A DNA stretch of 36,206 bases. It comes from Candidatus Methylomirabilota bacterium. Its GTDB lineage: Bacteria; Methylomirabilota; Methylomirabilia; Methylomirabilales; Methylomirabilaceae. Within the stretch, counting starts at the first letter, position 1. Each line of letters starts with the position of its first letter. A model generated the notes under the pieces. The model was not told the origin of the DNA. It saw only the letters and a program-made list of their open reading frames with translations, and did not search any database. Location: NCBI GenBank assembly GCA_028870115.1, contig JAGWQH010000021.1, forward strand, positions 1 to 36,206, given 5' to 3'. The position numbers and the translations under genes are program-made. Shown here one piece after another: positions 5,845-36,206 of this stretch.

Positions 5845-5917
5845 TACACCTGGGGTTAGAGGCTGGGGGTTGGACCCCCCCCAACTTCACCCTAACCCCT
5901 ACACCCTATCCCCTGTT
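5845..5917. repeat. G-rich palindromic spacer repeat before hldD
   Basis: This spacer has an inverted pair: GGGGTTAGAGGCTGGGGGTT on one side and CCCTAACCCC plus CACCCTATCCCCT on the other. It belongs to the dispersed GGGGATAGGG family that recurs in every tRNA-Ser spacer and near nifS and atpG. In the hldD/tRNA transcript it would form a strong stem. Confidence 0.6.
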
Positions 5918-5951
5918 GTTGTTGGCGGAGAGGCCGGGATTCGAACCCGGG
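5891..5951. repeat. 61-bp perfect direct repeat, copy 1
   Basis: Positions 5891-5951 are identical to 6240-6300. The repeat spans the G-rich spacer and the 3' portion (T-arm and acceptor strand) of tRNA-Ser(GGA). Its other copy covers the same part of tRNA-Ser(GCT). This suggests tandem duplication or gene conversion within the cluster. Confidence 0.85.
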
Positions 5952-6012
5952 GCAGAGTTTCCCCTGCTCACGCTTTCCAGGCGTGCCAGTTAAACCGCTC
6001 CTGCACCTCTCC
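5923..6012 (-). tRNA. tRNA-Ser (anticodon GGA)
   Basis: The cloverleaf has acceptor GGAGAGG/CCTCTCC and anticodon stem CACGC/GCGTG with loop CTGGAAA. A long variable arm typical of serine tRNAs, a GTTCGAATC T-loop and an encoded CCA are present. GGA decodes UCU and UCC. It is the last of four serine tRNAs downstream of serS. Confidence 0.97.
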
Positions 6013-6023
6013 GTATAAGAACA

Positions 6024-6077
6024 GGGTTTAGGGGATAGGGATAGGACTAACCCCCAACCCCTAATCCCTATACCCTG
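6024..6077. repeat. G-rich palindromic spacer between tRNA-Ser genes
   Basis: GGGTTTAGGGGATAGGG at 6024-6040 faces CCCCTAATCCCTATACCC at 6058-6075 as an imperfect inverted repeat. It fills the spacer between tRNA-Ser(GGA) and tRNA-Ser(CGA) and belongs to the dispersed G-rich family. Confidence 0.7.
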
Positions 6078-6085
6078 CTTTTCAA

Positions 6086-6175
6086 TGGCGGAGAGGGAGG
6101 GATTCGAACCCCCGGAGCAGTTACCCGCTCAGCGGTTTTCGAGACCGCCCGATTCAACCACTCTCGCACCTCTCC
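6086..6175 (-). tRNA. tRNA-Ser (anticodon CGA)
   Basis: Acceptor GGAGAGG pairs with CCTCTCC. The anticodon stem GCGGT/ACCGC carries the loop CTCGAAA, followed by a long variable arm, the T-loop GTTCGAATC and an encoded CCA. CGA reads the UCG codon. Confidence 0.97.
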
Positions 6176-6239
6176 GCATAAAGACGGGGGTTGGGGGGTT
6201 GGTGCTTCTTTATCACTGTCACCTTACCCTACCCCAACC

Positions 6240-6300
6240 CCTAACCCCTACACCCTATCCCCTGTTGTTGTTGGCGGAGAGGCCGGGATTCGAACCCGGG
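6240..6300. repeat. 61-bp perfect direct repeat, copy 2
   Basis: Identical to 5891-5951. Here it covers the spacer and the 3' portion of tRNA-Ser(GCT). The upstream part of this spacer (6183-6239) is further C- or G-rich sequence of the same family. Confidence 0.85.
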
Positions 6301-6363
6301 CTGCACCTTTCGACGCAGACTCGCTTAGCAGGCGAGCACCTTCGGCCACTCGGTCACCTCTCC
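6272..6363 (-). tRNA. tRNA-Ser (anticodon GCT)
   Basis: Acceptor GGAGAGG/CCTCTCC, anticodon stem CTCGC/GCGAG with loop CTGCTAA, a long variable arm, T-loop GTTCGAATC and encoded CCA. GCT reads AGU and AGC, the serine codons outside the UCN box. Confidence 0.97.
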
Positions 6364-6382
6364 GCAAAGGATGTTTAGAGTT

Positions 6383-6432
6383 TCATGTTTCGAGTTTTGG
6401 GTCAACGCGAAACCCCAAACTCGAAACCCGAG
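6383..6432. repeat. Palindrome between tRNA-Ser(GCT) and tRNA-Ser(TGA)
   Basis: GTTTCGAGTTTTGGGT on the left faces CCCCAAACTCGAAAC on the right, so the spacer can form a stem of about 14 bp. This sequence differs from the G-rich family that fills the other tRNA spacers. Confidence 0.65.
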
Positions 6433-6448
6433 ACCTGTTTATTCGTAC

Positions 6449-6534
6449 TGGCGGAGGGGGTAGGATTCGAACCCACGAGGCTTTCGCCTAACGGTTTTCA
6501 AGACCGCCGCCTTCAACCACTCGGCCACCCCTCC
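6449..6534 (-). tRNA. tRNA-Ser (anticodon TGA)
   Basis: Acceptor GGAGGGG pairs with CCCCTCC. The anticodon stem CGGT/ACCG carries loop CTTGAAA, followed by a long variable arm, T-loop GTTCGAATC and encoded CCA. TGA reads UCA and probably wobbles across the UCN box. It is the first tRNA after serS, about 32 bp downstream, in the same direction. Confidence 0.97.
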
Positions 6535-6566
6535 GAACCCTATCCCCTGTTCCCCATGACCCGTTT

Positions 6567-21747: not shown

Positions 21748-22851
21748 GTGAGTCGTAAGCCGAGAGTTGTTGTGGCGATGAGCGGCGGGGTTGACAGCGC
21801 CGTGGCCGCCGTCCTGCTCATAGAGCAAGGGTATGAGGTTGTCGGGATCAGTCTGAAGCTTTTAGCGCGCGACGCGGGGGACGGGTCGGAGCGGACCGAC
21901 CGCTGCTGCTCCGTCAAGGATGCCGAGGACGCGAGACTTGTAGCCGCGCAACTCGGAATCCCCTATTACGTATTGAATTATGAGTCGCAATTTCATCGCG
22001 AGATCATCCAGGAGTTTACGGAGGGCTATATAACGGGCCTGACGCCGAATCCCTGCGTGCGCTGTAATGAGCTGGTAAAGTTCGGCTCTCTGCTCCGGCA
22101 AGCGGTTGGACTGGGGGCCGAGCGCCTGGCGACGGGGCATTATGCGCGAGTCGAACGGGAGTACGCGGGCGGTCGCTATCTACTGCGCCGCGGATTCGAC
22201 GATGAGAGGGACCAGAGCTACTTCCTGTACAGTCTGACCCAGGCCCAATTGGCCCGAATCTGCTTACCCGTTGGTCAAATGACTAAGGATCAGGTCCGGG
22301 AACGGGCGGCGGCCCACGGTCTGAGGATCGCCGCCAAGGCCGACAGCCAGGATCTCTGCTTTGTCGGCCGGGATTACCGGACCTTCCTGCGGGAGCAGTG
22401 TGGGGACCGTCTGAGGCCGGGTCCGATTACAGACCGTGCCGGTCGGATCCTCGGAGAGCATGCGGGCCTGGCGCTTTATACCGTAGGCCAGCGCAACGGC
22501 TTGGGGCTGGCAGGCGGTCCCTTTTACGTGATCCGGCTTGACCCGAAGACCAACGCGGTCGTCGTGGGCAGACGGGAGGAGTTGCTACAGCCTGAATTCG
22601 TGGCCGACCAACTCAATCTTGTAGCGTGGGACCGCTTGACTGGGGAACGGCCTGTTCTGATGAAGGTTCGCTCCCGCCAGGCTGTGATGCCGGCGACCGT
22701 TTCTCCCCTCGGCGATGGCCGGATACGGGTCCGATGGCAGCACGCCCAGCCCGCTTCCGCGCCAGGCCAGGCGGCCGTGTTCTACGATGCCGCGGAGCCC
22801 GACCTGCTTGTGGGCGGCGCCACCGTCGCAGCAGATCCTGAGGCGCAGTGA
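21748..22851 (+). CDS. mnmA: tRNA-specific 2-thiouridylase MnmA
   Basis: MnmA puts sulfur on U34 of tRNA-Lys, -Glu and -Gln after ATP activation. The 367 residues contain the PP-loop SGGVDS (12-17), the catalytic C103 in TPNPCVRCN and the second catalytic cysteine C204 in DSQDLCFVG. The C-terminal barrel shows YTVGQRNGLGL. The start is GTG at 21748, just after a palindromic element, and its ribosome site is weak. The cysteine desulfurase gene lies immediately upstream, which fits a sulfur donor-acceptor pair. Length and key residues are normal. Confidence 0.96.
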   Translation: MSRKPRVVVAMSGGVDSAVAAVLLIEQGYEVVGISLKLLARDAGDGSERTDRCCSVKDAEDARLVAAQLGIPYYVLNYESQFHREIIQEFTEGYITGLTPNPCVRCNELVKFGSLLRQAVGLGAERLATGHYARVEREYAGGRYLLRRGFDDERDQSYFLYSLTQAQLARICLPVGQMTKDQVRERAAAHGLRIAAKADSQDLCFVGRDYRTFLREQCGDRLRPGPITDRAGRILGEHAGLALYTVGQRNGLGLAGGPFYVIRLDPKTNAVVVGRREELLQPEFVADQLNLVAWDRLTGERPVLMKVRSRQAVMPATVSPLGDGRIRVRWQHAQPASAPGQAAVFYDAAEPDLLVGGATVAADPEAQ

Positions 22852-23069
22852 GCAACGAAGGCGGTAGGTGCGTGCTGCCGTCTACCGCGCTGATTTGCAA
22901 ACATGAGCATAGGACCCCATCGGCGGTCACATCGCGACATCGGATTGATCTGTGGAATCAACTTAAAGAGTCTCGCACGCGGCCCGACCAAAATCCGCTA
23001 AGCGTTTCGATCTTGATGCAGGTCGCAACTTGCACTGCCAAGGCCGTCAGTACGGCTGTTCAAAAAGGC

Positions 23070-23097
23070 TTGACAGTGATGGGGGTAACGTTATAGG
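23070..23097 (+). promoter_or_regulatory. Candidate promoter of the surface protein gene
   Basis: TTGACA (23070-23075) and TATAGG (23092-23097) are 16 nt apart. The -35 is embedded in AAAAAGGCTTGACA, the same 14-mer as before atpI (27836-27849) and in the decayed atp leader (26851-26864). The transcript would have a leader of about 200 nt. Confidence 0.5.
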
Positions 23098-23207
23098 CTT
23101 CGTTTTATAAAATTGACCGAGCCCACCTGACGGCTGAGCATAGCAGTTTTGCAGGGGAGGGTCTTCCGTGACCCCACGAGACCAAGCGAGGTCCCCCGCG
23201 CTCGTCG

Positions 23208-23250
23208 AACGCGCTTTTTGCGCCTGTTTTCAGGCCGCGAAAGGCGCGTT
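23208..23250 (+). promoter_or_regulatory. Long hairpin in the surface-protein leader
   Basis: The arms 23208-23226 and 23231-23250 pair over about 19 bp with one bulged C, including a few G-U pairs, around a TTTT loop. It lies 54 bp before the ATG at 23304. The sequence after it (TGTGTTTTGG) is only weakly terminator-like. An attenuator or a regulatory RNA element is possible, and I do not recognise a known riboswitch. Confidence 0.55.
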
Positions 23251-23303
23251 TGTGTTTTGGCCCTCGTGATCATCGCGGCACAGGCCCGATAGGAGACTGT
23301 GAT

Positions 23304-26300
23304 ATGCCAGGAGCATTCACCGTAATGAAGTCTCACGGAGCACGCCTGACACTCGTTGCCTTCCTCGCGGTGATAGTCCTTGGAACGTCTCACAGACCTG
23401 CGAACGCGCTCGCCTTTGACCCGATTCAGAACCTCTCAAACACCTCGACTGGCTCTCAGAACCCCCGCTTCGCGGTCAGTGGAGCGAACGTCTTTGTCGC
23501 GTGGGAGGAAGTCGTGGGGAGCAATGCGTACGGCAACCCCATCTACCAGGTCTTTTTCCGGCGCTCCACCGACACCGGCGTGACGTGGCAGCCTATGGTG
23601 CCGCTCGAAGATCCCTCGCCGTTCCCCCCCCAAGTCCGACTCGCGGCCAGCGGTGACACCGTCCTGGTGCTCTGGTTTCAAGTCGTCGACACGACGATCC
23701 CCTTGGTCTACCGCCGCTCCACCGATGCGGGCGTTACGTTCGGGCCGCTCCAGACCATCGATCCCACCAATGGGGGTAATGTCGAGGTCGCCTTCACCGG
23801 GTCGAACGCCTACGCTGCCTGGAACGAATGCTGCTCGCCTACGGAACTGGTGGCCTACAGCCGCTCCAGCGACGCGGGTGCCACGTTCAGCGCCCCGATC
23901 GTCGTCTCTGAGGTGGTGGCCCGGCGTGGCTGATGAGCAGCCGCAACTTGCGGTAAACGGCACCACTGTGGCCATCGTGTGGAAGCAGAACACCAACTCG
24001 AGCCCCATCGGCTGGACTATCAGCGTTCGAACCTCTACTGACGGAGGTGTGACGTTTGGCAGCATTGTGAACTTGTCGGCGCCTCTTGCTCAGCCCAACG
24101 GTGCATTGCCGCGGGTTGCCATCAGCGGAAGCAACGTGCACGTAGCCTGGCACGAGGGGACTGATTTCCTCTATCGCGCTTCAGCTGATAGCGGGTCCAC
24201 CTTCGGCGCCATTCAGGCGCTCAATGGCACATCACCGGTCCCAAACGGTACCTCCGCCCTCGTCGCAAGCGGATCCAATGTCTACGCGGCCTTCCCCGTA
24301 GTCATTTCTCAAACGCCCACTGGGTGGGGCAACACATATGGCATGATCCTTCGTAGTTCCACTGACAACGGGACCACGTTTGCGGGTCCCGTCAACCTGA
24401 CCAGCTTCACTCCATCGGGATCTGCTCAAGCCTGGCCTGCCATCGCTGCGGAGGGGTCAGAGATCGATGTGGCGTGGGAGGATCGCATCGACCCTCATAA
24501 CGGCTGTATCAACGGCTGCATCATCTCCTTCCGCCACTCCTCAGATAGCGGCGCTACCTGGGATCCTCCCCTTGACCAGGACGCCACGACCGTCTCCGGA
24601 TCCTCCCAGTCGGGGGCCATGCCTACGGTCGCTCTCGGTGATGCTGCCGTGTACGTTATCTGGTTTGACAACACCCTCGGCAATAATGAGATATTCTTCC
24701 GCCGTGCGGCCACGACTCCGACCAATCCACCGGCACTGTCCATCTCGCCCAGTTCCCTCGACTTCGGTGTCATCTTAGTCGGCACCTCTAAGGACCTCAC
24801 CTTTACCGTCACGAACACCGGCGGCGGCACCTTAACTGGCAGTGCCAGCGCCAGCATTCCGTTCAGCATCGTTCCTCCGGATTCCTTCAGCCTGACCGCC
24901 GGACAAAGCCAGAACATCACCGTCCGCTTTAGCCCCACCTCCGCCGGAACCTTCACCAGTAACGTCAGCGTCACCAGCAATGGCGGTTCTGCCTCGCCGC
25001 AGGTGCAGGGCGTCGGGGCCTTACCGCACATCGACTCCCTCTCTGACCCAACTGGTACCCTCACCATCACGAGCAACCCTGTCGGCAGCCTCGTCAGCAT
25101 TAAAGGCTCCTACTTCGACACGAATGCCACGAATCACGTGCAACTGTGCGCAACGACGCCTACTATCACCCACTGGGAAGACACGCTCATCGTCTTCGTC
25201 GTGCCCTCATTGGCGGCGGGCACCGTCTGCCAGCTTCAGGTGGTCGCGCCCGCCGGCTCCAGCAATGCCGTTTCCCTTACGGTCGTCGCCCCCCTGAGTA
25301 TTTCCGGACTTATCAGGACCAGCGCCGGACGCGGGATCGCAGGCGTTCGCGTCTCGATCGCTGGCGATAAGGTTGGCATTGCCACGACCACCAGGACGGG
25401 GGCATATTCCCAGATCGGCCTTCCAAACGGCATCTTCACCCTCACGCCAGTCCTCAGCGGTTATGATTTCACCCCCTCCACACAGCAGGTTACGCTCAAT
25501 GGGGCCAGTGCAGCTAACGTGAACTTTACCGGAACCCTCGAGGTTCCGGTCATCTCCAGTGTGAGCCCATCCACCGGTTCCACCGTTCAGACGGTGACCA
25601 TCACGGGTACCGGCTTCGCCCAACAAGCCCCATCAGGGAACGCCGTCTTCTTCGGGTCGGCCAACGCTTCCATCACCTCCTGGAGTCCAACCCGGATTAT
25701 TGTCAAGGCTCCGTCCGGCTCCGGATCTGTCCTCGTCACGGTTCAGACCGGGGTCGGCACCGATCACCAGCAAACCAGCAATGCCAAGGCGTTCAACTAC
25801 ACGGCCCCGCTGCCAACCAACGTCAACATTGTCCCCAGCGGCGACTTCCAGGCCCTCATCTTTCGCACCTTCCAGATTACCCAGCGCACTCGTTCCCAGG
25901 CCGTCGCCACCATCAGCATCCAGAACAACACGCAGACCTGGTACGTCGTCTATCCCGAGCCACCAATTCATGTCACTGCCGAGCCCCCGCTCCCCACGCA
26001 GCCATTCCTCATGAGTGCCCAACAGGAACTCCCGCTCGGCGAGGTCACTTTCACCAGGCCCAACCCCATGCAGATCGCCTTTGTCGCCGATAACAGTATC
26101 GACCTCACTACCTGCAATACGCCCACCGCCATGGCCACATCAGCCTGCGATCAAACTCGGTTTGTCCTCGCCGCGTTGGGCTGGGATCTCTTCTACCGTG
26201 TGATTACTGGCAACGCCCCCTTGCCCACTGACACCCCGTCTATCACTGGACTCCTCCTAGCGCTCGGGGCCCAAAACCCCCTGATCAATCTCGCTATCAA

Positions 26301-26511
26301 CACTTACAACAAGGACTTGCTCGGCATCATTGAGCAACTTCAGGACGCCATCTACGACGATGCCGTGAAAGCAATCATCACGAAACTCAACCTTCCGACG
26401 GAACTCCCGGGTTGGTGGGACTTCTATTGGCGTGCAGGCTTCGCCTCGGAACTCCTTGTGGAAACCCTCATTTACCCACACACTGGGACCCTTACGTTCA
26501 CCGGTCGATGA
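23304..26511 (+). pseudogene. Secreted Asp-box / TIG-domain surface protein, split by a +1 frameshift
   Basis: From ATG 23304 (AGGAG upstream) a signal peptide is followed by short repeats with the Asp-box pattern S-x-D-x-G-x-T-[FW], as in sialidase-like beta-propellers. The frame stops at 23931-23933. The same protein continues in the +1 frame from about 23905-23930 (GVADEQPQLAVNG) to 26511. The span is 3208 nt, one base more than 1069 codons. Seven Asp-boxes fall on both sides of the break (STDTGVTW, STDAGVTF, SSDAGATF, then STDGGVTF, SADSGSTF, STDNGTTF, SSDSGATW). Next come a choice-of-anchor/ASH-like domain, an IPT/TIG domain, a carboxypeptidase-regulatory-like domain, a second TIG domain, and about 240 residues I do not recognise. 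Function is unknown, but an extracellular binding or glycan-related role would fit. The break could be a sequencing error or a real mutation. Confidence 0.75.
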
Positions 26512-26842
26512 GACCCCTGAACGTCGTTCTACAGGAGCGGCACACAGACGCAGTTCACGCGTGTAACTCTGATGGCGACCGTGCTACTTTTTCTCGGCGG
26601 CCTCCAGCTCCGGATGCCTCTAACTGCCGAAGGCTTTGTTGAGGCCATCCCCAGCCTCATCATGTAGCTTGCGGCGCCTACGGTTGCACTAATTGGATTG
26701 ATTGCCGACTCCGTAGCCAGCGTGTTCGCGTTCTGAGTGCTGCCGCATAGGATTTTCTCCTTGCTGCCGTGTGCAACGATGCATGTCCCGTACAGCGTGT
26801 CCGGCGTGCTCGTCGTCCGCCGGTCCTCGCCTCGGTTCAGTC
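26512..26842. other. Gene-poor stretch after the surface protein
   Basis: No intact gene is visible. The plus strand has a hydrophobic frame starting MATVLLFLGGLQLRMPLTAE at 26571. It is cut by TAG and TGA after 31 and 54 codons, so it may be a relic of a membrane protein. A 170-codon minus-strand frame (26529-27041) has no recognisable domain and runs through a promoter-like repeat, so I do not call it. Confidence 0.4.
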
Positions 26843-27000
26843 CGCGGCCAAAAAAGGCTTGACAATTCATGACCCATCGGGCAGATACTGAAGCTGTTTC
26901 AAGCTTTGTGACCTGCCAGGCCCGATTGAGGGGATTTGGCAACGTTTTTGATGCCGACATGAATGGCCTGGAGCAGTGTGCCGGAGGCGCCTTGGTAAGC
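26843..27000 (+). pseudogene. Decayed copy of the atpI promoter, leader and first codons
   Basis: The stretch aligns with 27828-27988. A 23-bp block including TTGACA is identical (26843-26865 and 27828-27850). A degenerate hairpin with a T run follows, and then an ATG (26959) at nearly the same distance from TTGACA (100 versus 103 bp). The first codons read MNGLEQCAGGALV, compared with MNEREQFVRGTLV of atpI. Similarity fades after about 27000, so only a fragment survives. The hicBA pair and a palindromic element lie between the two copies. Confidence 0.65.
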
Positions 27001-27074
27001 AAACCTTGGTCCGTGTTCCCAACGTGCCCGTAGCTCAGCATTGTTATTGAGCATAGCGGAAAGCGTGTAACGTG

Positions 27075-27218
27075 CTAGTGTAGTGCGTCATAAGTCCCTT
27101 TACAGTCCGTTCGTGGTGAGCTTGTCGAACCATGAACGGAAGTGGCCGAAATGCTTCACCCTTCGACAGGCTCAGGGCGAACGGTGAATGTAAAGAAGCG
27201 TTAGACGCACTACACTAG
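27075..27218. mobile_element. 144-bp palindromic MITE-like element
   Basis: Perfect 15-bp terminal inverted repeats are CTAGTGTAGTGCGTC (27075-27089) and its complement (27204-27218). The interior is also largely palindromic, with arms CCGTTCGTGGTGAGCTTGTC and CACCCTTCGACAGGCTCAGG facing each other. It encodes nothing. It ends 14 bp before the hicB start codon, so it now forms the upstream region of that operon. Related copies lie at 13088 and 21587. Confidence 0.75.
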
Positions 27219-27232
27219 AGAAGGATTGCGCG

Positions 27233-27454
27233 ATGAAGCTGCCGATTGTTTTGGAAGGCAACCAGCGGGAAGGGTACACGGCAACGTGTCCGGCGCTGCC
27301 AGGCTGTGTGAGCGAAGGCGAGACACGGCAAGAGGCTATTAAGAACGTCAGAGAGGCCATCAGGCTGTACCTGCGCGCAGTCACGCGGGAGCATATCCTG
27401 CTCAAGAAGGCGAAGGCAGCGAAAGAGGTGGAGGCGCTTGAGGTTGCCGTGTAA
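27233..27454 (+). CDS. hicB: HicB-family antitoxin
   Basis: The 73-residue protein starts MKLPIVLEGNQREGYTATCP and has the family signature PALPGCVSEGETRQEAIKNV with an EAI-RLYL helix after it. This is the small HicB partial RNase H-like fold that neutralises HicA. No DNA-binding C-terminal domain is present, so self-repression may be weak or indirect. AGAAGGA precedes the ATG. It overlaps hicA by one base (TAATG), the usual coupled layout, here with the antitoxin first. Confidence 0.93.
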   Translation: MKLPIVLEGNQREGYTATCPALPGCVSEGETRQEAIKNVREAIRLYLRAVTREHILLKKAKAAKEVEALEVAV

Positions 27455-27699
27455 TGCCGCGCCTTCCTCGGGTCTCCGGCAAGGAGGCCGTTCGAGCGCT
27501 TAAACGAGCCGGATTCGTGGTGTTCGATCAAGAAGGTAGTCATGTCTACCTACACCGCCGACTTGGCGACCGCTTTACGCATCGCGTAACCGTTCCCGTC
27601 CACGGTCAGCGAATTCTCAAGCCCAAGACCCTCAAATCGATCCTCAAGGCTGCCGGCCTGACCGCATCCGGGTTCACCGATCTCCTTCTTGGTAGCTGA
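27454..27699 (+). CDS. hicA: HicA-family mRNA interferase toxin
   Basis: HicA toxins are double-stranded-RNA-binding-fold RNases that cleave mRNA when freed from HicB. The 81-residue protein shows the family start LPRVSGKEAVRALKRAGF, the catalytic-histidine motif QEGSHVYLHR (H30), and the end KPKTLKSILKAAGLT. The residues needed for activity look present. It is coupled to hicB by a TAATG overlap. The following 247 bp up to atpI hold no gene, only the atp leader. Confidence 0.94.
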   Translation: MPRLPRVSGKEAVRALKRAGFVVFDQEGSHVYLHRRLGDRFTHRVTVPVHGQRILKPKTLKSILKAAGLTASGFTDLLLGS

Positions 27700-27843
27700 G
27701 CTTATGGCGTACTCTTTGACCGCTATCTCGCGCCTGCTCCGTGCCGGGAGCGGCTGGGACCGGGGGAAAGATCGGGGCAAGGGGTAGGTGCACTTAGATG
27801 CGCGACACCCCAAAAAGCGGCCACGTTCGCGGCCAAAAAAGGC

Positions 27844-27849
27844 TTGACA
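27844..27849 (+). promoter_or_regulatory. Candidate -35 element of the atp operon promoter
   Basis: TTGACA lies in the shared AAAAAAGGCTTGACA block, 103 bp before atpI. The region 17 nt downstream (CAAGCT) is a poor -10, so the promoter call rests mainly on the -35 and on its repetition in the decayed copy at 26859-26864. Confidence 0.4.
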
Positions 27850-27897
27850 AATCTGAATCAGTAGGGCAAGCTTGAGCGAGTTTTCACGATCTTCAGA

Positions 27898-27937
27898 GCT
27901 GCCAGATCCGGCTGGAGGGATCCGGCAGCGCTTTTTT
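27898..27937 (+). terminator. Terminator-like hairpin in the atp operon leader
   Basis: GCTGCC-A-GATCC (27898-27909) pairs with GGATC-C-GGCAGC (27918-27929) around an 8-nt loop, followed by six T residues at 27932-27937. This is a classic intrinsic-terminator form. It ends 10 bp before the atpI start and after the candidate promoter, so it could attenuate the operon or stop read-through from hicBA. Confidence 0.6.
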
Positions 27938-27946
27938 GCCGGTGGT

Positions 27947-28357
27947 ATGAACGAGCGGGAGCAGTTCGTCCGGGGTACGCTGGTAGGCGCGCTCGGCCTG
28001 GTCGTGGCCGGACTTGTCGGTTTTGGGCTGTTCGGGAAGTGGGATTGGGCCTTGGGCTTTGCCACCGGCGCTCTCGTCAGCCTGTTCAGCTTCAGGCTCA
28101 TTGTTCAAACCGTCGTCCGTCTCACGGAGCGCCCGGCGCCTCGGTCGCGTGGTCAGCGGTACTGGTGGATCCGATCTATTCTTAGGCTCTTCGGAGTCGC
28201 CGTCATCGTCTTCTTCGTGATCGTCTACCTGCCGGTGAATCTGATCGGGATGGCGCTCGGCCTGCTGGCGGTTCAGCTTGGGATGGGCGGCTATTTCGTC
28301 GTTCGTTCGTCGTTTTCGCACAGTAGCAGTACCGGGATGGAGGATCAGCAGTCATGA
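27947..28357 (+). CDS. atpI: ATP synthase protein I (AtpI-like)
   Basis: AtpI is a small membrane protein linked to assembly of the c-ring. The 136-residue product has hydrophobic segments near residues 12-32, 36-52, 83-103 and 104-125, and starts MNEREQFVRGTLVGALGLVV. Similarity in the family is low, so the call leans on size, topology and position at the head of the atp operon. Its stop overlaps the atpF start (ATGA). A terminator-like hairpin and a candidate promoter lie just upstream. The genes for subunits a and c, which usually follow atpI, are absent. Confidence 0.7.
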   Translation: MNEREQFVRGTLVGALGLVVAGLVGFGLFGKWDWALGFATGALVSLFSFRLIVQTVVRLTERPAPRSRGQRYWWIRSILRLFGVAVIVFFVIVYLPVNLIGMALGLLAVQLGMGGYFVVRSSFSHSSSTGMEDQQS

Positions 28358-28959
28358 CGAAGGATCGCATCCGGCTTATCGCGGTAGTCGCCTGTTTCCT
28401 CGGCCTAGCCGCGCTTCTCGTGGCCTTCCCTGCGTGGGCTGCCGAAGAGGCCCATGGAGGGGAGCAGCCCGGGATCATCAACCTGAACAAGACGTTGCTC
28501 ATTCAGGTTGTAAACTTTCTCATTCTGATCGCCGTACTGTACAAGTTCCTGTTCAAGCCGCTCACCCAGTTCCTGGCGACACGGGCCGACGGCATCAAGC
28601 GTTCTCTGGAGGAGGCGAAGGCAGCCAGAGAGGCTGCGGCCCAGACGCAGAAAGAGTACGAAGCACAGATTCTCGCCACCCGGCGGGAGGCGGCCGCGAT
28701 GCGGGAGTCGGCGGTTCGTGAGGTGGAGGAAGAACGACAGCGACTGCTGAAAGCGTCGCGCGAAGAGGCCGCTCGTCTCGTAACAGAGGCCAAGGCGCAG
28801 ATCGAACAGGAGGTCAAAAGGGCGAAGGTTGAGCTTCGCGAGGAGGTGGTGGGCCTCTCGCTGGGGGTCGCGGAGCGCGTTATTGCCCGTAGCCTCACGA
28901 CCGATGATCACCGCCGCTTGGCGGAGCAGGTGATGGCCGAGATTGGGAGCGGTCGGTGA
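28354..28959 (+). CDS. atpF: ATP synthase F0 subunit b
   Basis: Subunit b forms the peripheral stalk that holds F1 against rotation. The 201-residue protein begins with a signal-like hydrophobic stretch (about residues 8-30, ending PAWAAEE). The conserved membrane anchor LLIQVVNFLILIAVLYKFLF (48-67) follows, and then a long charged helix rich in A, E, K and R (about 75-180) that forms the coiled-coil stalk. The extra N-terminal segment occurs in several non-model lineages. Both ends overlap their neighbours by 4 bp, so the genes are tightly coupled. Confidence 0.95.
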   Translation: MTKDRIRLIAVVACFLGLAALLVAFPAWAAEEAHGGEQPGIINLNKTLLIQVVNFLILIAVLYKFLFKPLTQFLATRADGIKRSLEEAKAAREAAAQTQKEYEAQILATRREAAAMRESAVREVEEERQRLLKASREEAARLVTEAKAQIEQEVKRAKVELREEVVGLSLGVAERVIARSLTTDDHRRLAEQVMAEIGSGR

Positions 28960-29507
28960 GGGCTGGCGGCCTTTCCAGGAGGTACGCTAAGGCGCTGGCG
29001 GACGTCGCCGCCGAGCAACAGGTGTTGGAGGCGGTCGGGCGCGATCTCCGCACGGTTGTAGAGACCATGAAACGAACTCGCGAGGTGGCTACCTTCTTTG
29101 CGAGTCCCGCCATCCCGCTACCTGATAAACGGCGCATCCTGCACACGATCGCGGAAGGGGTGGGTGTGAAGCCGCTCACCACGAACTTTCTGAATCTGAT
29201 CCTGGAGAAACGGCGGCTCCCGCACCTCGGAGAGATTGCCCTCGCCTATGAGGAGCTGACCGATGAGCGGCTGGGTCGCGGGAAGGCCACGGTGACTTCG
29301 GCTGTACCGCTGTCCGAGCCGATCATTCATGGGCTGAAGGAGCGCCTGCGGACGGCGACGGGAAAGGAGATCTATCTGGAGACCCGAGTCGATCCCTCCA
29401 TTGTGGGCGGGTTTGTCGCGCAGATCGGCAGCACCATCTATGATGGGTCCGTACGGACACAACTGAAAAAGGTGCGCGAATATCTGCTGAAGAGCGAGTA
29501 TTGCTGA
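28956..29507 (+). CDS. atpH: ATP synthase F1 subunit delta
   Basis: Delta (OSCP) connects subunit b to the top of F1. The 183-residue protein starts at GTG 28956, overlapping the atpF stop as GTGA. It has the standard N-terminal helical domain with SRRYAKALADVA and the C-terminal end IVGGFVAQIGSTIYDGSVRTQLKK, both diagnostic for the family. Length is typical. atpA follows after 18 bp. Confidence 0.96.
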   Translation: MRAGGLSRRYAKALADVAAEQQVLEAVGRDLRTVVETMKRTREVATFFASPAIPLPDKRRILHTIAEGVGVKPLTTNFLNLILEKRRLPHLGEIALAYEELTDERLGRGKATVTSAVPLSEPIIHGLKERLRTATGKEIYLETRVDPSIVGGFVAQIGSTIYDGSVRTQLKKVREYLLKSEYC

Positions 29508-29525
29508 TACTGAAAGGGTAGCGAA

Positions 29526-31052
29526 ATGGCGCAGATCAAAGCGGAAGAGATCACCGAAATCATCAAGCAGCAACTGGCCGGGTACGAGGCGCTTGTGGAT
29601 GTGGCGGAGATCGGTACCGTCATCGAGGCGGGCGACGGAATCGCTCGTATCTACGGCCTGGAAAAGGCGATGGCCGGCGAGCTCCTGGAGTTTCCGCACG
29701 ACGTCTTCGGCATGGTGCTGAACCTTGAGGAGGATAACGTCGGCGCGGTCCTGTTGGGCGAGGCCGAGGCGATCAAAGAAGGTGATCTGGTCAAGCGGAC
29801 GGGCCGGATCGCCTCCGTGCCGGTGGGCGAAGCGCTGGTAGGGAGGGTAGTGAACGCCCTGGGCCAGCCGATCGACGGCAAGGGACCGATCGACGCCAAA
29901 GAGCTTCGGCCCATTGAGCGGTTGGCCCCAGGGGTGGTGGACCGCCGACCGGTCAAGGAGGCGCTTCAGACCGGCATCAAGGCCATCGATGCGATGATCC
30001 CGATCGGCCGGGGACAGCGCGAGCTGATCATCGGCGACCGGCAGACCGGCAAGACCGCCGTCGCTATTGACGCGATCATCAACCAGAGGGGCAAGGACGT
30101 CTTCTGCGTCTACGTAGCCGTTGGTCAGAAGCGGTCCACTGTAGCCCAGGTGGTCAAGACGCTGGAAGAGGCCGGGGCTATGGCCTACACCATGGTTGTG
30201 GCGGCCACCGCCTCGGAGGCGGCGCCGCTCCAGTATATCGCCCCCTACGCCGGCTGCGCCATGGGCGAGTATTTCCGAGACTCTGGGCGTCACTCCCTTT
30301 GCATCTACGACGACCTGTCCAAGCATGCCCAGGCCTACCGCCAACTCTCGCTGCTGCTGCGTCGGCCGCCCGGCCGCGAGGCCTATCCGGGCGACGTCTT
30401 CTACCTGCACTCGCGCCTTCTGGAGCGGGGGGCCAAACTGAATGACGATCTGGGCGGAGGGTCGCTCACGGCGCTCCCGATCATCGAGACGCAGCTTGGC
30501 GATGTCTCGGCCTACATTCCGACCAACGTGATCTCGATCACCGACGGCCAGATCTATCTGGAAACCGATCTGTTCTTCGCCGGCATCCGCCCGGCCATCA
30601 ACGTCGGCCTGTCGGTCTCCCGGGTCGGCGGCTCGGCCCAGATCAAGGCGATGCGGCAGGTGGCCGGTAAGCTTCGGCTGGACTTGGCGCAGTATCGGGA
30701 GATGGCAGCATTTGCCCAATTCGGGAGTGAACTGGACAAGGCGACCCAGGCTCAGCTCAATCGGGGCGCGCGAATGGTCGAGGTGCTGAAACAGGGACAG
30801 TATGTGCCCCTCGAGGTCGAACGACAGATCCTCATCATCTACGCGGGGACGGCCGGCCACCTGGACGAGCTTCCGGTTGATGCAGTCTTGCAATTCGAGG
30901 GGACGCTATACAACTCGGTTCAGGGACGGTATCCGGGTATCTTTCAGGAGATCAAGGAAAAGCGCGAGCTCAGTGATGCCCTCCGCGCCGAGATGGACCA
31001 GGCGATTACCGAGTGCAAGACGGAGTTTCTCGCTGCCCGAAAGGCGGCGTAA
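29526..31052 (+). CDS. atpA: ATP synthase F1 subunit alpha
   Basis: Alpha alternates with beta in the catalytic hexamer and carries non-catalytic nucleotide sites. The 508 residues show the Walker [16 protein letters not shown] (about residue 169), the alpha signature [17 protein letters not shown], and the region [20 protein letters not shown] that identifies alpha rather than beta. Length is normal. GGTAGCG precedes the ATG. It lies in the F1 block atpH-atpA-atpG-atpD-atpC. Confidence 0.97.
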
Positions 31053-31056
31053 GGCA

Positions 31057-31075
31057 GGGGATAGGGTTTAGGGGA
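31057..31075. repeat. G-rich dispersed repeat in the atpA-atpG gap
   Basis: GGGGATAGGGTTTAGGGGA fills half of the 37-bp gap between atpA and atpG, inside an essential operon. It is a single arm of the same family as the tRNA-Ser spacers and the desulfurase 3' end. It leaves only a weak ribosome site for atpG. Confidence 0.7.
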
Positions 31076-31089
31076 AAGCCGACAACGCA

Positions 31090-31962
31090 ATGGCGACTTT
31101 ACGCGACATTAAGCGGCGCATTACATCGGTCAAAAGCACACAGCAGATCACCAAGGCGATGAAGCTGGTGGCGGCAGCCAAGCTGCGTCGGGCCCAGGAG
31201 CGCATCCTGGAGGCGCGTCCCTATGCCTTCAAGATGCAGGAGGTGCTGGCCAGCCTGGCCCTGAGGGCCGACCCCCAGTATCATCCGCTGCTCTGTCGAC
31301 GCGAAACCGGCAAAAAGATCATCGTCGTCATTGCTGCCGACAAGGGGCTGTGCGGCGGGTTTAACAGCAATATCATGCGCCGGTCGCTGGAGTTGCTCCG
31401 CACAACACCCGGCGAAACCACCGTCACGCTGGTCGTGGTCGGGCGCAAGACGCGCGATTTCTATCGGCGCCGTCCCTATACGATCCGGTCGGAACAGGTC
31501 GGCTTTTTCGATCGGTTGGCGTATGACCATGCGGCCGCGTTGGGCCGAGAGTTGGCGAACGCCTACGTGGCCGAGGAGGCGGACGAGATCCAGTTGGTCT
31601 ATAATGAGTTTAAGTCGGTCGCGACGCAGCGGGTCGTGGTGGAGCGGCTGCTGCCCATTGAGCCGTTGCAAGCCCCTGAGGAGCTGGCTGCCATCGACTT
31701 CATTTACGAGCCGTCGCCGCAGGTGATCCTGGAGGGGCTGCTGCCCAAACATGTTGAGGTGCAGGTGTACAGGGCGCTCATGGAATCGTTGGCTGGTGAG
31801 TACGGCGCCCGGATGACCGCTATGGATGCGGCGAGCAAGAACGCCTCAGAGATGATCGACCTGCTGACGTTGCAGTTCAACAAGGCGCGGCAGGAACGAA
31901 TCACCAAGGAGCTGCTCGAGGTTGTCGGTGGGGCCGAGGCGTTGCGGGCGGCTAAAGGATAG
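31090..31962 (+). CDS. atpG: ATP synthase F1 subunit gamma
   Basis: Gamma is the rotating central shaft. The 290 residues have the conserved N-terminal helix DIKRRITSVKSTQQITKAMK, the middle segment ADKGLCGGFNSNI, and the C-terminal RMTAMDAASKNASEMIDLL and FNKARQERITKELLEVVGGA. These are the two coiled-coil halves of the shaft. Length is normal. The ribosome site is weak because a repeat fills the upstream gap. Confidence 0.97.
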   Translation: MATLRDIKRRITSVKSTQQITKAMKLVAAAKLRRAQERILEARPYAFKMQEVLASLALRADPQYHPLLCRRETGKKIIVVIAADKGLCGGFNSNIMRRSLELLRTTPGETTVTLVVVGRKTRDFYRRRPYTIRSEQVGFFDRLAYDHAAALGRELANAYVAEEADEIQLVYNEFKSVATQRVVVERLLPIEPLQAPEELAAIDFIYEPSPQVILEGLLPKHVEVQVYRALMESLAGEYGARMTAMDAASKNASEMIDLLTLQFNKARQERITKELLEVVGGAEALRAAKG

Positions 31963-31980
31963 AGCGCGCACAGTGTCTAG

Positions 31981-33429
<1,449 letters not shown>

Positions 33430-33456
33430 TCCTGTTGCAAGGGGCGCCGTAACGTC

Positions 33457-33885
33457 ATGGCAGAGCAACACAGTCAAACGTTCATGCTCGAGGTGGTCAC
33501 GCCTCAGCGGCTGATCATCAGCGAGGAGGTTGAAGAGCTGATGGCGCCCGGACAGGAGGGATATTTCGGCGTCTGGCCCGGCCACACCCCCTTTATGACG
33601 ACGCTGAAGATCGGGGAGCTATCCTATACGCGGGGGCGGAAGGAGCGGTTTCTGGCCGTCGACTGGGGGTACGCCGAGGTTCGCCCCGACAAGGTAATCG
33701 TCCTGGTGGAGTCGGCGGAGCGACCGGAGGAGATCGACCTGGCCAGGGCTGAACAGGCGAAGCTTAGGGCTGAGGAACGGCTACGTGGCTTCGGGGACGA
33801 AACCATCGATCATGCCAGGGCCCAGGCCGCCCTTGAGCGGGCGCTTGCCAGAATGGCGGTCGCGGCCAAGGGGCGGCCATCGTAA
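33457..33885 (+). CDS. atpC: ATP synthase F1 subunit epsilon
   Basis: Epsilon sits on the base of the shaft and can inhibit hydrolysis. The 142-residue protein has the N-terminal beta-sandwich with [20 protein letters not shown] and [20 protein letters not shown]. The two-helix C-terminal domain is from about residue 88 on ([15 protein letters not shown]). It closes the atp operon. The DAHP synthase starts only 10 bp later in the same direction, so the two may share a transcript. Confidence 0.95.
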
Positions 33886-33895
33886 GGGAATCGGA

Positions 33896-34912
33896 ATGAT
33901 TATCGTCATGAAAACAGGCGCTCACGAGAGCCAGGTCCGAGACGTCATTCGGCGGATCGAGGAGCTCGGATATCAGGCCCATATCATCGAGGGGACGCAG
34001 CGGACGGTCATCGGGGCCGTGGGGGATGAGCGGGGTAAAGATCGCCTGCAATCACTGGAAGTGATGCCGGGAGTAGACACTGTCGTTCCGATCCTGCAGC
34101 CGTTCAAACTGGCGAGCCGAGAGGTAAAGGGCGGCAAGAGTATCGTCCGGGTGGGGGATCTGGAGATCGGCGGACCGGCGGTCGTGGTCATGGCCGGCCC
34201 CTGCTCGGTAGAGAGCGAGGCGCAGATGCTGCAGACCGCCCAGGCCGTCAAGGCGGCCGGGGCTACGGTCCTCCGGGGAGGGGCGTTCAAGCCGCGCACC
34301 TCGCCCTACGCCTTTCAAGGCCTGGCCGAGGAGGGGCTCAAGTACTTGGATGTCGCGAGGGCGGCGACTGGCCTGAAGATCATCACCGAGGTCGTCAACC
34401 CCATGGACGTGGAGCTGGTGGCGGCGTATGCCGATATTCTGCAGATCGGCGCCCGCAACGTCCAGAACTTTGCGCTGCTGAAGCGGGCCGGCGAGGTCGG
34501 TAAGCCGGTTCTGCTCAAGCGGGGGATGGCGACCACCATTAAGGAATTCTTGATGGCGGCTGAGTATATCCTGTCCGAAGGCAATTACAATGTCGCCCTC
34601 TGCGAGCGCGGGATTCGGACCTTCGAAACCGCTACCCGCTTTACCTTGGATCTGAGCGCGGTCCCCGTCCTCAATAAGCTGACCCACCTGCCGGTCATCA
34701 TAGACCCCAGCCACGGCACGGGCCACTGGGAGTATGTGGCGCCGATGGCCAAGGCGTCGGTCGCCTGTGGGGCCGACGGGCTCTTGATTGAGGTCCATCC
34801 CAATCCTGAAGTGGCCCAATCCGACGGGCTGCAATCGCTCAAGCTCAACAAATTCCAGCAGCTCATGGACGAACTGCGCCCCATCGCCCTAGCCGTCGGC
34901 CGCCGGATCTAA
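33896..34912 (+). CDS. aroF: 3-deoxy-7-phosphoheptulonate synthase, type I-beta
   Basis: The enzyme condenses PEP and erythrose 4-phosphate in the first step of aromatic amino acid synthesis. I chose ATG 33896 ([18 protein letters not shown]) with AAGGG upstream, giving 338 residues. The first 70 residues form a ferredoxin-like regulatory domain, typical of the I-beta class that includes the Thermotoga enzyme. The barrel shows [34 protein letters not shown] and the metal-site stretch [11 protein letters not shown]. The N-terminal domain suggests allosteric control by aromatic amino acids. No other aro genes are next to it. Confidence 0.94.
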
Positions 34913-34956
34913 TCTCGCATCGCCGACATACCTGCCTGCTCCCTCTGACCTTACCC

Positions 34957-34986
34957 TTGACATCCAGGCAACTCTCGCATTAGCAT
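34957..34986 (+). promoter_or_regulatory. Candidate promoter of the DUF4160/DUF2442 pair
   Basis: TTGACA (34957-34962) and TAGCAT (34981-34986) are 18 nt apart, in the gap after aroF and 43 bp before the DUF4160 start. Confidence 0.4.
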
Positions 34987-35028
34987 CTGACTACGTGCGG
35001 CGAAGGAGCGTGCGGAAGACTTCTGACT

Positions 35029-35283
35029 ATGCCAACCGCGTTACGAATCGACGCTTATCGTTTCTACTTTTACTCGTACGATTGCGGTGAGCCACAACAT
35101 ATGCATGTGGACCGGGAGAATCGGAGCGCCAAATTCTGGCTTGATCCCGACGTAGCATTGGCCGACAATCGTGGCTATAGCCGCAAGGAGCTACGCGACA
35201 TTGAGCGCATGATCCGTGAGAATCTGGAGGTCTTGAAGAATGAATGGGATGCATTCTGCGGCGGTGACACCCGCATTGGCTAG
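35029..35283 (+). CDS. DUF4160 domain protein
   Basis: The 84-residue protein MPTALRIDAYRFYFYSYDCG contains the DUF4160 landmarks FYFYSYDCGEPQHMHVDREN and AKFWLDPDVALADNRGY, and ends in a helical ELRDIERMIRENLEVL segment. Its biochemical role is not established. It overlaps the DUF2442 gene by up to 44 bp. DUF4160 and DUF2442 genes are often adjacent and have been suspected of being toxin-antitoxin-like. That role is inference here. Confidence 0.85.
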   Translation: MPTALRIDAYRFYFYSYDCGEPQHMHVDRENRSAKFWLDPDVALADNRGYSRKELRDIERMIRENLEVLKNEWDAFCGGDTRIG

Positions 35284-35569
35284 AGTCGTAAACGTCATAA
35301 TGACGGACGACACGCTGGCCCTAGATCTCGAGGACGGGCGGACCATCTCGATTCCCATCGGCTGGTATCCACGTTTGGCGCATGGTACGCCGGCTGAACG
35401 CGCTCATTTTCAAATCAGCGGCGCTGGCTACGGGGTCCACTGGCCGGATCTGGACGAAGATATTGGTGTCGAGGGATTGTTGCTTGGCAAGAAGTCGACA
35501 GAAAGTCCCGCCTCGTTCGAGCGATGGCTGCAGCGGCGGAAAGAACGGCCGCAGCGCGCCACCGCCTAA
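35240..35569 (+). CDS. DUF2442 domain protein
   Basis: The 109-residue protein matches DUF2442. The core ALDLEDGRTISIPIGWYPRL is followed by GYGVHWPDLDEDIGVEGLLL. It is small and acidic in the middle and has no transmembrane segment. The start is ATG 35240 or 35249, both inside the DUF4160 gene, which implies coupled expression. Function is unknown. The following 200 bp have no gene but hold a weak promoter candidate. Confidence 0.85.
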   Translation: MNGMHSAAVTPALARVVNVIMTDDTLALDLEDGRTISIPIGWYPRLAHGTPAERAHFQISGAGYGVHWPDLDEDIGVEGLLLGKKSTESPASFERWLQRRKERPQRATA

Positions 35570-35660
35570 CTACCGCCCCCCGCTTCGCTTTTGAACCCCC
35601 GGTCAACCGAGCATTAGCGCCCGATTTGTGCTCGCCTGTAGCGGTGCCTTCCTGACAACC

Positions 35661-35689
35661 TTGACAACTCCTTAGAAACCAAAGAGAAT
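35661..35689 (+). promoter_or_regulatory. Weak promoter candidate before the last gene
   Basis: TTGACA (35661-35666) is followed at 17 nt by GAGAAT (35684-35689). The -10 is poor. It lies 83 bp before the GTG at 35772. Confidence 0.25.
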
Positions 35690-35771
35690 TGCCGCATTCT
35701 TGGAAGCCTGAGGATCGGGATATGCTGACCAGCGCACTCAGTGGTTAGCCTGACAACAGGAGGAGGGCGTC

Positions 35772-36100
35772 GTGGCCGTAGGGAAGCCGTTCCGGAACTT
35801 GGCTGGGTTCTGGAAGCGCATCGAGTACTGGATCATCGGGCGGATGCTCAAGGAGGGGATGGATGTCTATGTCCCCCTTGTAGACGATCATGCTGTCGAT
35901 GCCATCATTCGTCGACGCGACGGATCGATCGCGATGGTGCAGAACAAGGCCCGGTCCCGCGACGTTATAGAGGACGACGCGGCCCTCTTCGCGGCGATAG
36001 AGCATGAACCAAGACAGGACTCTGGTTCGTGTTCTATTCTGAGCGGATGGAGCTCACTTGGCTTCTCAACCGGAATATTGCAGTTGAACTCATATCTTAG
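35772..36100 (+). pseudogene. Frameshifted gene resembling a PD-(D/E)XK nuclease-fold protein
   Basis: From GTG 35772, with AGGAGG about 8 nt upstream, the frame reads VAVGKPFRNLAGFWKRIEYW. It then reads GMDVYVPLVDDHAVDAIIRR and SIAMVQNKARS, which fits the D...(E/Q)-x-K layout of restriction-endonuclease-like folds. Near 36018-36023 the sense shifts to another frame, where WFVFYSERMELTWLLNRNIA continues the fold. A TAG at 36098-36100 then ends it. One base seems to be lost near 36020. The original frame runs on to the window edge but looks meaningless. Similarity is by pattern only, so the product name is tentative and the break could be a sequence error. Confidence 0.55.
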
Positions 36101-36206
36101 CCTCTGTCACCGGAACTGCATTGCAGTTGGCGTCCTTCGGGAGCAGGCGCGAGAGATGTGCGAGGAAGGTCGCCTGCCACGGTCTGGCGCGCGAGAGCCG
36201 GAGCAT

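Follow-up and report, generated by a model that had tools for sequence, protein, structure and literature searches.

Does the hairpin that stands with a run of Ts immediately before atpI act on the transcripts of the ATP synthase genes behind it and, if so, does it end some of them or serve them in another way? Promoter strength, gene order and translation are usually taken to control ATP synthase operons, and Methylomirabilis lives on nitrite-dependent methane oxidation. The window considered here is the whole stretch of 36,206 nucleotides, contig C21 in a genome that totals 2,812,395 bases. A first-pass annotation of its letters had described a 10-bp stem and six Ts between a candidate promoter and the atpI start codon, and had read them as attenuation of the whole ATP synthase operon. 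We establish here how the element is built, that it lies behind a conserved promoter block and that its stem and U-run are conserved within the genus, and weigh what the element may do.

Anatomy of the hairpin and of the promoter block before it

The hairpin and the six Ts are real, and lie between promoter and start codon as described (Table 1); the stem has 11 core pairs with one interruption rather than 10 bp. It is built from arms of 6 bp (27898-27903/27924-27929) and 5 bp (27905-27909/27918-27922) that are separated by an A.C mismatch (27904/27923) and closed by an 8-nt loop (27910-27917), and two outer pairs (27895-27896/27931-27932) beyond an A.G mismatch bring the total to 13. Against dinucleotide shuffles, the fold of 27895-27932 has a z of -2.74; the 81-nt stretch around it folds unremarkably (z -0.96, 27/200 shuffles as good). 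GCCGGTGGT, which leads from the T-run to the start codon, shows by eye no more than a weak Shine-Dalgarno-like GGTG.

Table 1. Coordinates of the atp leader, its genes and the neighbouring features in the window
Feature	Position	Strand	Remarks
A-tract, GGC and -35 hexamer TTGACA of the atp promoter	27835-27849	+	hexamer at 27844-27849
Probable -10, AAGCTT	27868-27873	+	18-nt spacing from -35; GGGCAAGCT invariant in 11/11 genus loci
Predicted transcript start and T-tract	27880-27884	+	start ~27880, from promoter spacing; T-tract 27881-27884
Leader hairpin	27895-27932	+	two-part stem and outer pairs; -21.6 kcal/mol, equalled in 2/200 dinucleotide shuffles
T6 run abutting the hairpin	27932-27937	+	its first T is also available to the extended stem
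GCCGGTGGT	27938-27946	+	T-run to start codon, 9 nt
atpI	27947-28357	+	first gene of atpI-F-H-A-G-D-C; PF03899; ATG at 27947
atpF, atpH, atpA, atpG (31090-31962), atpD (31993-33429), atpC (33457-33885)	28354-33885	+	Pfam matches
hicB (27233-27454, PF15919), hicA (27454-27699, PF07927)	27233-27699	+	co-directional, upstream of atpI
Decayed copy of promoter, hairpin (26914-26941), T5 (26945-26949) and first atpI codons	26840-26998	+	end ~26996-26998

What defines an intrinsic terminator, a GC-rich hairpin followed directly by a U-run, is thus found at this site. Of the T5+ runs on both strands of the window, 21 have a hairpin, and the one at atpI has the strongest energy; by a d'Aubenton-type terminator score it comes first, narrowly, among the 87 T4+ runs (6.0 against 5.9). 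A loose pattern scan of 22000-36206 returned 13 terminator-like sites, the atpI site with 6 pairs among them, where 9.6 (SD 3.8) were expected; such a scan is by itself unconvincing as evidence for a terminator. Further, in a sample of 360 kb from a congener (G005; 13% of its genome), eight hairpins of -20 kcal/mol or lower stand ahead of T5+ runs, and none of the 39 sites that combine a hairpin of -14 or lower with T5 stands 40 nt or less ahead of an ORF start on its strand, as judged by crude ORF calls (100 aa or more) that leave 2 of the 39 sites without any ORF downstream in their stretch.

The putative promoter block upstream of the hairpin is, by alignment, conserved beyond the genus, across the order. 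Its -35 hexamer reads TTGACA at 27 of the 28 measurable loci and TTGACT at the other (the G024 locus, cut by a contig end, lies outside the 28). At 18-nt spacing, TAnnnT follows at 16 of the 17 order-level loci, the exception being G019, and at none of the 11 genus loci, all of which carry AAGCTN at the -10 position, a poor match to consensus; consistent with this poor -10, the atp promoter is missing from a sigma-70 scan of 22000-36206. An inverted repeat, GGCTTG/CAAGCT, is invariant in the genus and lost in the order relatives, and was attributed to the promoter. Moreover, a tract of 3-6 Ts begins 6-8 nt past the -10 hexamer at 27 of the 28 loci, which come from 27 genomes; in 2000 letter shuffles the number averaged 1.7 and never exceeded 9. 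The tract occurs at 0/13 promoters of the F0 operon and at 4/43 promoter-like background sites in the G005 sample. One of these four shares the atp letters and precedes a PALP/LeuA_dimer gene (G005 L054 4773-4814, minus strand), so atp is not alone in having the T-tract. With a start near 27880, about 15 nt of RNA would precede the stem.

Conservation within the genus and a decayed second copy

AtpI was sought in 60 genomes and matched in 29; within the genus 11 of 15 genomes matched, the window's own included, and the four that gave none (G002, G003, G011 and G012) are 80-83% complete. A leader hairpin is present at all 11 genus loci, the strongest at each having -17.1 to -23.6 kcal/mol, and a T-run of at least four follows at 11/11 and of at least five at 9/11 (the leaders of G007 and G014 are identical and both counted). 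The T-run begins 87-89 nt past the CTTGAC block at every one of them, and the 11 leaders can be aligned over the A-tract, TTGACA, the invariant GGGCAAGCT, hairpin, T-run and ATG. Mean column conservation rises from 0.54 upstream to 0.99 in the A-tract/-35 region, and is 0.70 in the spacer, 1.00 in GGGCAAGCT, 0.74 from there to the hairpin, 0.90 in the hairpin, 0.92 in the T-run, 0.90 in GCCGGTGGT and 0.93 over the first 20 atpI codons. Counted over the eight distinct rows that remain without G006 and identical rows, cells off consensus amount to 10/206 (4.9%) in the stem, 9/64 (14.1%) in the loop and 62/189 (32.8%) in the pre-stem RNA, which is variable apart from its short T-tract.

The pattern of change in the stem itself is less decisive. 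No pair has changed on both sides and pair counts are no higher than in shuffles, so that covariation fails as proof of the stem. In the eight distinct rows (G006 left out), 8 of the 9 changed pairs are still paired, which has P = 2.6e-5 if all substitutions are equally likely and P = 0.09 with transitions only; six of these eight kept changes lead to G-U. In G006 the hairpin is largely different, with 10 continuous pairs, T7 and an 11-nt insertion in the leader, and 18/200 shuffles of its 55-nt stretch fold as well. The T-run shows one-base gaps in G013 and G008, and is shortened or interrupted in G013, G008 and G009; considering these gaps and the G006 insertion, we argue that the stretch is not coding.

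The claim that a decayed copy keeps a degenerate version of the leader held: promoter, hairpin, T5 and atpI start recur from 26840 to about 26996. The hairpin of this copy has -13.2 kcal/mol, and the copy scores 21.4 bits against the covariance model (E 0.0016 in the window, 0.124 at genome scale). By alignment score it is closer to the G009 leader (141) than to the intact leader of the window 1 kb away (117); counts of identical letters, 121/147 with the window leader and 117/147 with that of G009, do not favour G009. A genus-wide search with model R1 returned the 11 atpI leaders together with weak matches at E 0.005 to 0.94, namely the decayed copy, matches in G003, G011 and G012, the leader of a nirB-like gene in G013, one match in G009, and the hairpin itself, matched twice on the opposite strand. 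When the matches in G003, G011 and G013 were examined for surrounding ORFs, only that in G013 was leader-like. At 3 of 9 genus loci of this nirB-like FAD/NAD(P) gene (G013, G008 and G004; the nine are L092-L100, of which L095 is on contig C107 of the window's own genome), a leader hairpin with T5 stands shortly before the start; the G004 letters differ, and interrupted T-runs are seen by eye at others. At five of the nine loci there is a TTGGCA-N-TTGC block, which we take to be sigma-54-like.

Possible roles of the hairpin

We tentatively suggest, at somewhat less than an even chance, that the hairpin is a partial intrinsic terminator in the leader, and that it acts as a fixed or factor-modulated attenuator of atpIFHAGDC. 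Transcription would start near 27880, at the order-conserved promoter block, and RNA polymerase would reach the GC-rich hairpin and its U5-U6 run within about 55 nt. A fraction of the transcripts might stop there as leader RNAs some 55-60 nt long, and the remainder would read through to atpI, 9 nt on. Termination of this kind may set the output of atpIFHAGDC relative to the separate operon for the a and c subunits, with a control that would be constitutive, or exerted by a protein or elongation factor, and not by an RNA switch; a constant toll would be its simplest form.

Attenuation as first proposed therefore stands in part. The hairpin lies inside the atp leader, between the conserved promoter block (the start being predicted from its spacing) and the first gene, as the terminator of an attenuator does, and it is kept beside atpI at loci with another upstream gene. 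Classical regulated attenuation is not supported: the RNA before the stem is about 15 nt long and variable, the terminator score is negative at 3 of the 11 loci, and neither a conserved antiterminator nor a leader peptide was found. The one alternative fold tried, in a search that was not exhaustive, pairs CCGGC with GCCGG across the T-run; 93.3% of its cells are paired and one pair has changed on both sides, and with 105/500 shuffles as good it is weak and unconvincing. No start codon and frame for a leader peptide is common to all 11 leaders, in-frame extensions varying in their start and being shifted in 3/11. A CsrA-controlled leader was discarded, the window's own genome having no PF02599 match at E<=0.001 (the family was found in 3 of 14 control genomes). 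So was an ANTAR target: one ANTAR-domain protein is encoded in the genome, and the leader has one stem with an 8-nt loop some 15 nt from the predicted start, where two small hairpins with hexanucleotide loops are needed. Considering the short, variable pre-stem RNA, the lack of a CsrA match and the ANTAR anatomy, which does not fit, we suggest that any regulation would pass through another factor or the polymerase itself. Against Rfam 15, positions 26000 to 36206 of the window gave a single match at E<=1; it lies outside the leader, at 27107-27184, and scores far under its gathering threshold.

The reach of the proposal, the whole ATP synthase operon, also has to be narrowed. The only atpB and atpE matches in the genome are on another contig, C47, behind a different promoter, which at 13/13 loci consists of TTGACA, a spacing of 17-18 nt and a TAgAGT-type -10; no hairpin is common to the 13 leaders. 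A dispersed C/G-rich palindromic repeat is seen by eye in six of the 13, with T4 behind it, flagged in two. In the window's genome (G000 C47:35975-37308) atpB and atpE form a separate unit after a short AtpZ-like ORF that has no Pfam match.

A second explanation, which we consider rather unlikely, is that the 5'-proximal hairpin shields the long atp mRNA from decay that depends on the 5' end, or positions the ribosome, or both, with the U-run as an S1 site and little or no termination. The chief argument for it comes from the wider order, where the hairpin is more widely spread than the U-run. In group f4 the leader hairpin is strong and has no U-run (in G021 and G017 perfect hairpins begin 44-45 nt past the CTTGAC block; in G027 another hairpin scores stronger, and G024 is cut by the contig end); f5 has leader hairpins, with T4 at 3 of 5 loci; those of f3 are weaker, at -14.3 to -18.3, and in f2 and f6 the element is weaker or absent. 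Candidate ATG, GTG or TTG start codons stand at or near the atpI start position in most f4 and f5 relatives. In f3 (L024-L030) a hairpin with T6 lies within the atpI frame at 7/7 loci, about 145 nt past the -35 block; codons alone may explain it. Protection would also accord with the weak Shine-Dalgarno match before atpI, and with the persistence of the hairpin in G008 and G009, where the U-run is short or interrupted. Indeed, at the three loci with a negative terminator score the hairpin is still there (G013, -6.0 with T5; G009, -9.5 with an interrupted run; G008, -26.0 with T4). The score is positive at the other eight, namely 6.0 in the window, 4.4 to 10.8 at six others and +32.7 in G006. 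Against protection stand G006, whose terminator score is the highest and whose stem has changed most, and, in the genus, the T-run, which abuts the stem and has columns as conserved (0.92) as those of the stem (0.90).

Thirdly, the hairpin might terminate, and so insulate, a co-directional upstream unit, which is mnmA in most congeners, with atp transcripts passing through and termination weak. We regard this as unlikely. The gene upstream of atpI is indeed co-directional at 11/11 genus loci, and in G005 mnmA ends about 19 nt before TTGACA. Its identity varies, however: it is mnmA at eight loci, an HD-domain gene at two (G004 and G009) and hicA in the window (one mnmA, both HD-domain genes and hicA were checked by Pfam, the other mnmA being assigned by likeness and that of G014 being a fragment), and the leader is kept; the mnmA of the window lies at 21748-22851, some 5 kb from atpI. 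Moreover, since the promoter block is upstream of the hairpin, atp transcripts would cross the hairpin too. The narrower case named in the first-pass annotation, in which transcription starts downstream of the hairpin and the hairpin ends hicBA only, was rejected. At the 10 other genus loci the ORFs read ahead of atpI do not include hicBA, the leader hairpin following other genes there, and a hairpin kept while its neighbour changes apparently travels with atpI; given also the conserved block, a start downstream is unlikely.

Two structures elsewhere in the window may be recorded. An inverted repeat at 27075-27218 (arms 27075-27107 and 27186-27218), with a REP-like repeat between its arms, lies just before hicB. 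In 5890-6540, tRNA-like repeats follow one another in tandem and 62 nt are duplicated exactly (5890-5951/6239-6300); by its letters, this stretch is probably a minus-strand tRNA cluster with duplicated spacers.

That the element is not RNA-level at all seems very improbable: an N-terminal extension of AtpI (an open frame runs from TTG 27872 into the gene, and six other genus loci have a similar TTG frame) was rejected, that frame being shifted by one-base gaps or the 11-nt insertion at 3/11 loci and other families having alignable N-terminal AtpI residues behind unrelated upstream letters, a DNA-level inverted repeat would not favour the G-U pairs to which 6/8 kept changes lead, and chance is unlikely given the conservation.

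Returning to partial termination in the leader, one elaboration of it, drawn by analogy, is that nucleotide supply tunes the F1/b-subunit operon within its first 60 nt, by a slippage-like start at the T-tract (in the order) and then the conserved leader terminator (in the genus), separately from the a and c subunits. We hold this to be improbable, the more so as the T-tract letters also precede an unrelated gene. Taken together, the conservation of the hairpin suggests that it would either trim or protect the message of a central energy operon. If it trims, a genus-wide leader terminator before the F1 genes would be a simple means of tuning the subunit ratio or the operon output, with the a/c operon lacking it; if it merely protects the mRNA, the case would counsel caution against calling attenuators from sequence.

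Comparison with known leader elements

At the level of titles and the opening parts of abstracts, the literature yielded no leader terminator of an ATP synthase operon, which is not proof of absence. Cyanobacterial ATP synthase operons likewise have an RNA element, the ATPC RNA motif; it lies inside the operon, unlike the atp leader, for which no Rfam family reached its gathering score. Reiterative-transcription starts are known from pyrBI, codBA, upp and carAB, genes of nucleotide metabolism; by analogy, they may be compared with the T-tract at the presumed atp transcript start, with the differences that the genes here encode ATP synthase and that the start is predicted from promoter spacing. 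Hairpins that stabilise the 5'-UTR exist on bacterial mRNAs, and share with the atp leader a strong stem near the 5' end, whereas the conserved U-run next to the stem falls outside that class.

Antitermination leaders of the ANTAR/NasR-EutV type (PMC3369931, PMC7496416, PMC6759348, as far as these were consulted) have in common with the present case a leader terminator and an ANTAR protein in the genome, and differ in their two hairpins, which are small, with hexanucleotide loops that have A first and G fourth (PMC3369931). Attenuators with an intrinsic terminator in the leader, for which the ilvB leader RNA with its short peptide is an example (in the part of PMC3526491 consulted), come next to it. 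The atp leader is unlike them in being short, in preceding ATP synthase genes, and in that no leader peptide or conserved antiterminator was found in it; it is like them in placing a hairpin with a U-run between the promoter and the first gene of the operon.
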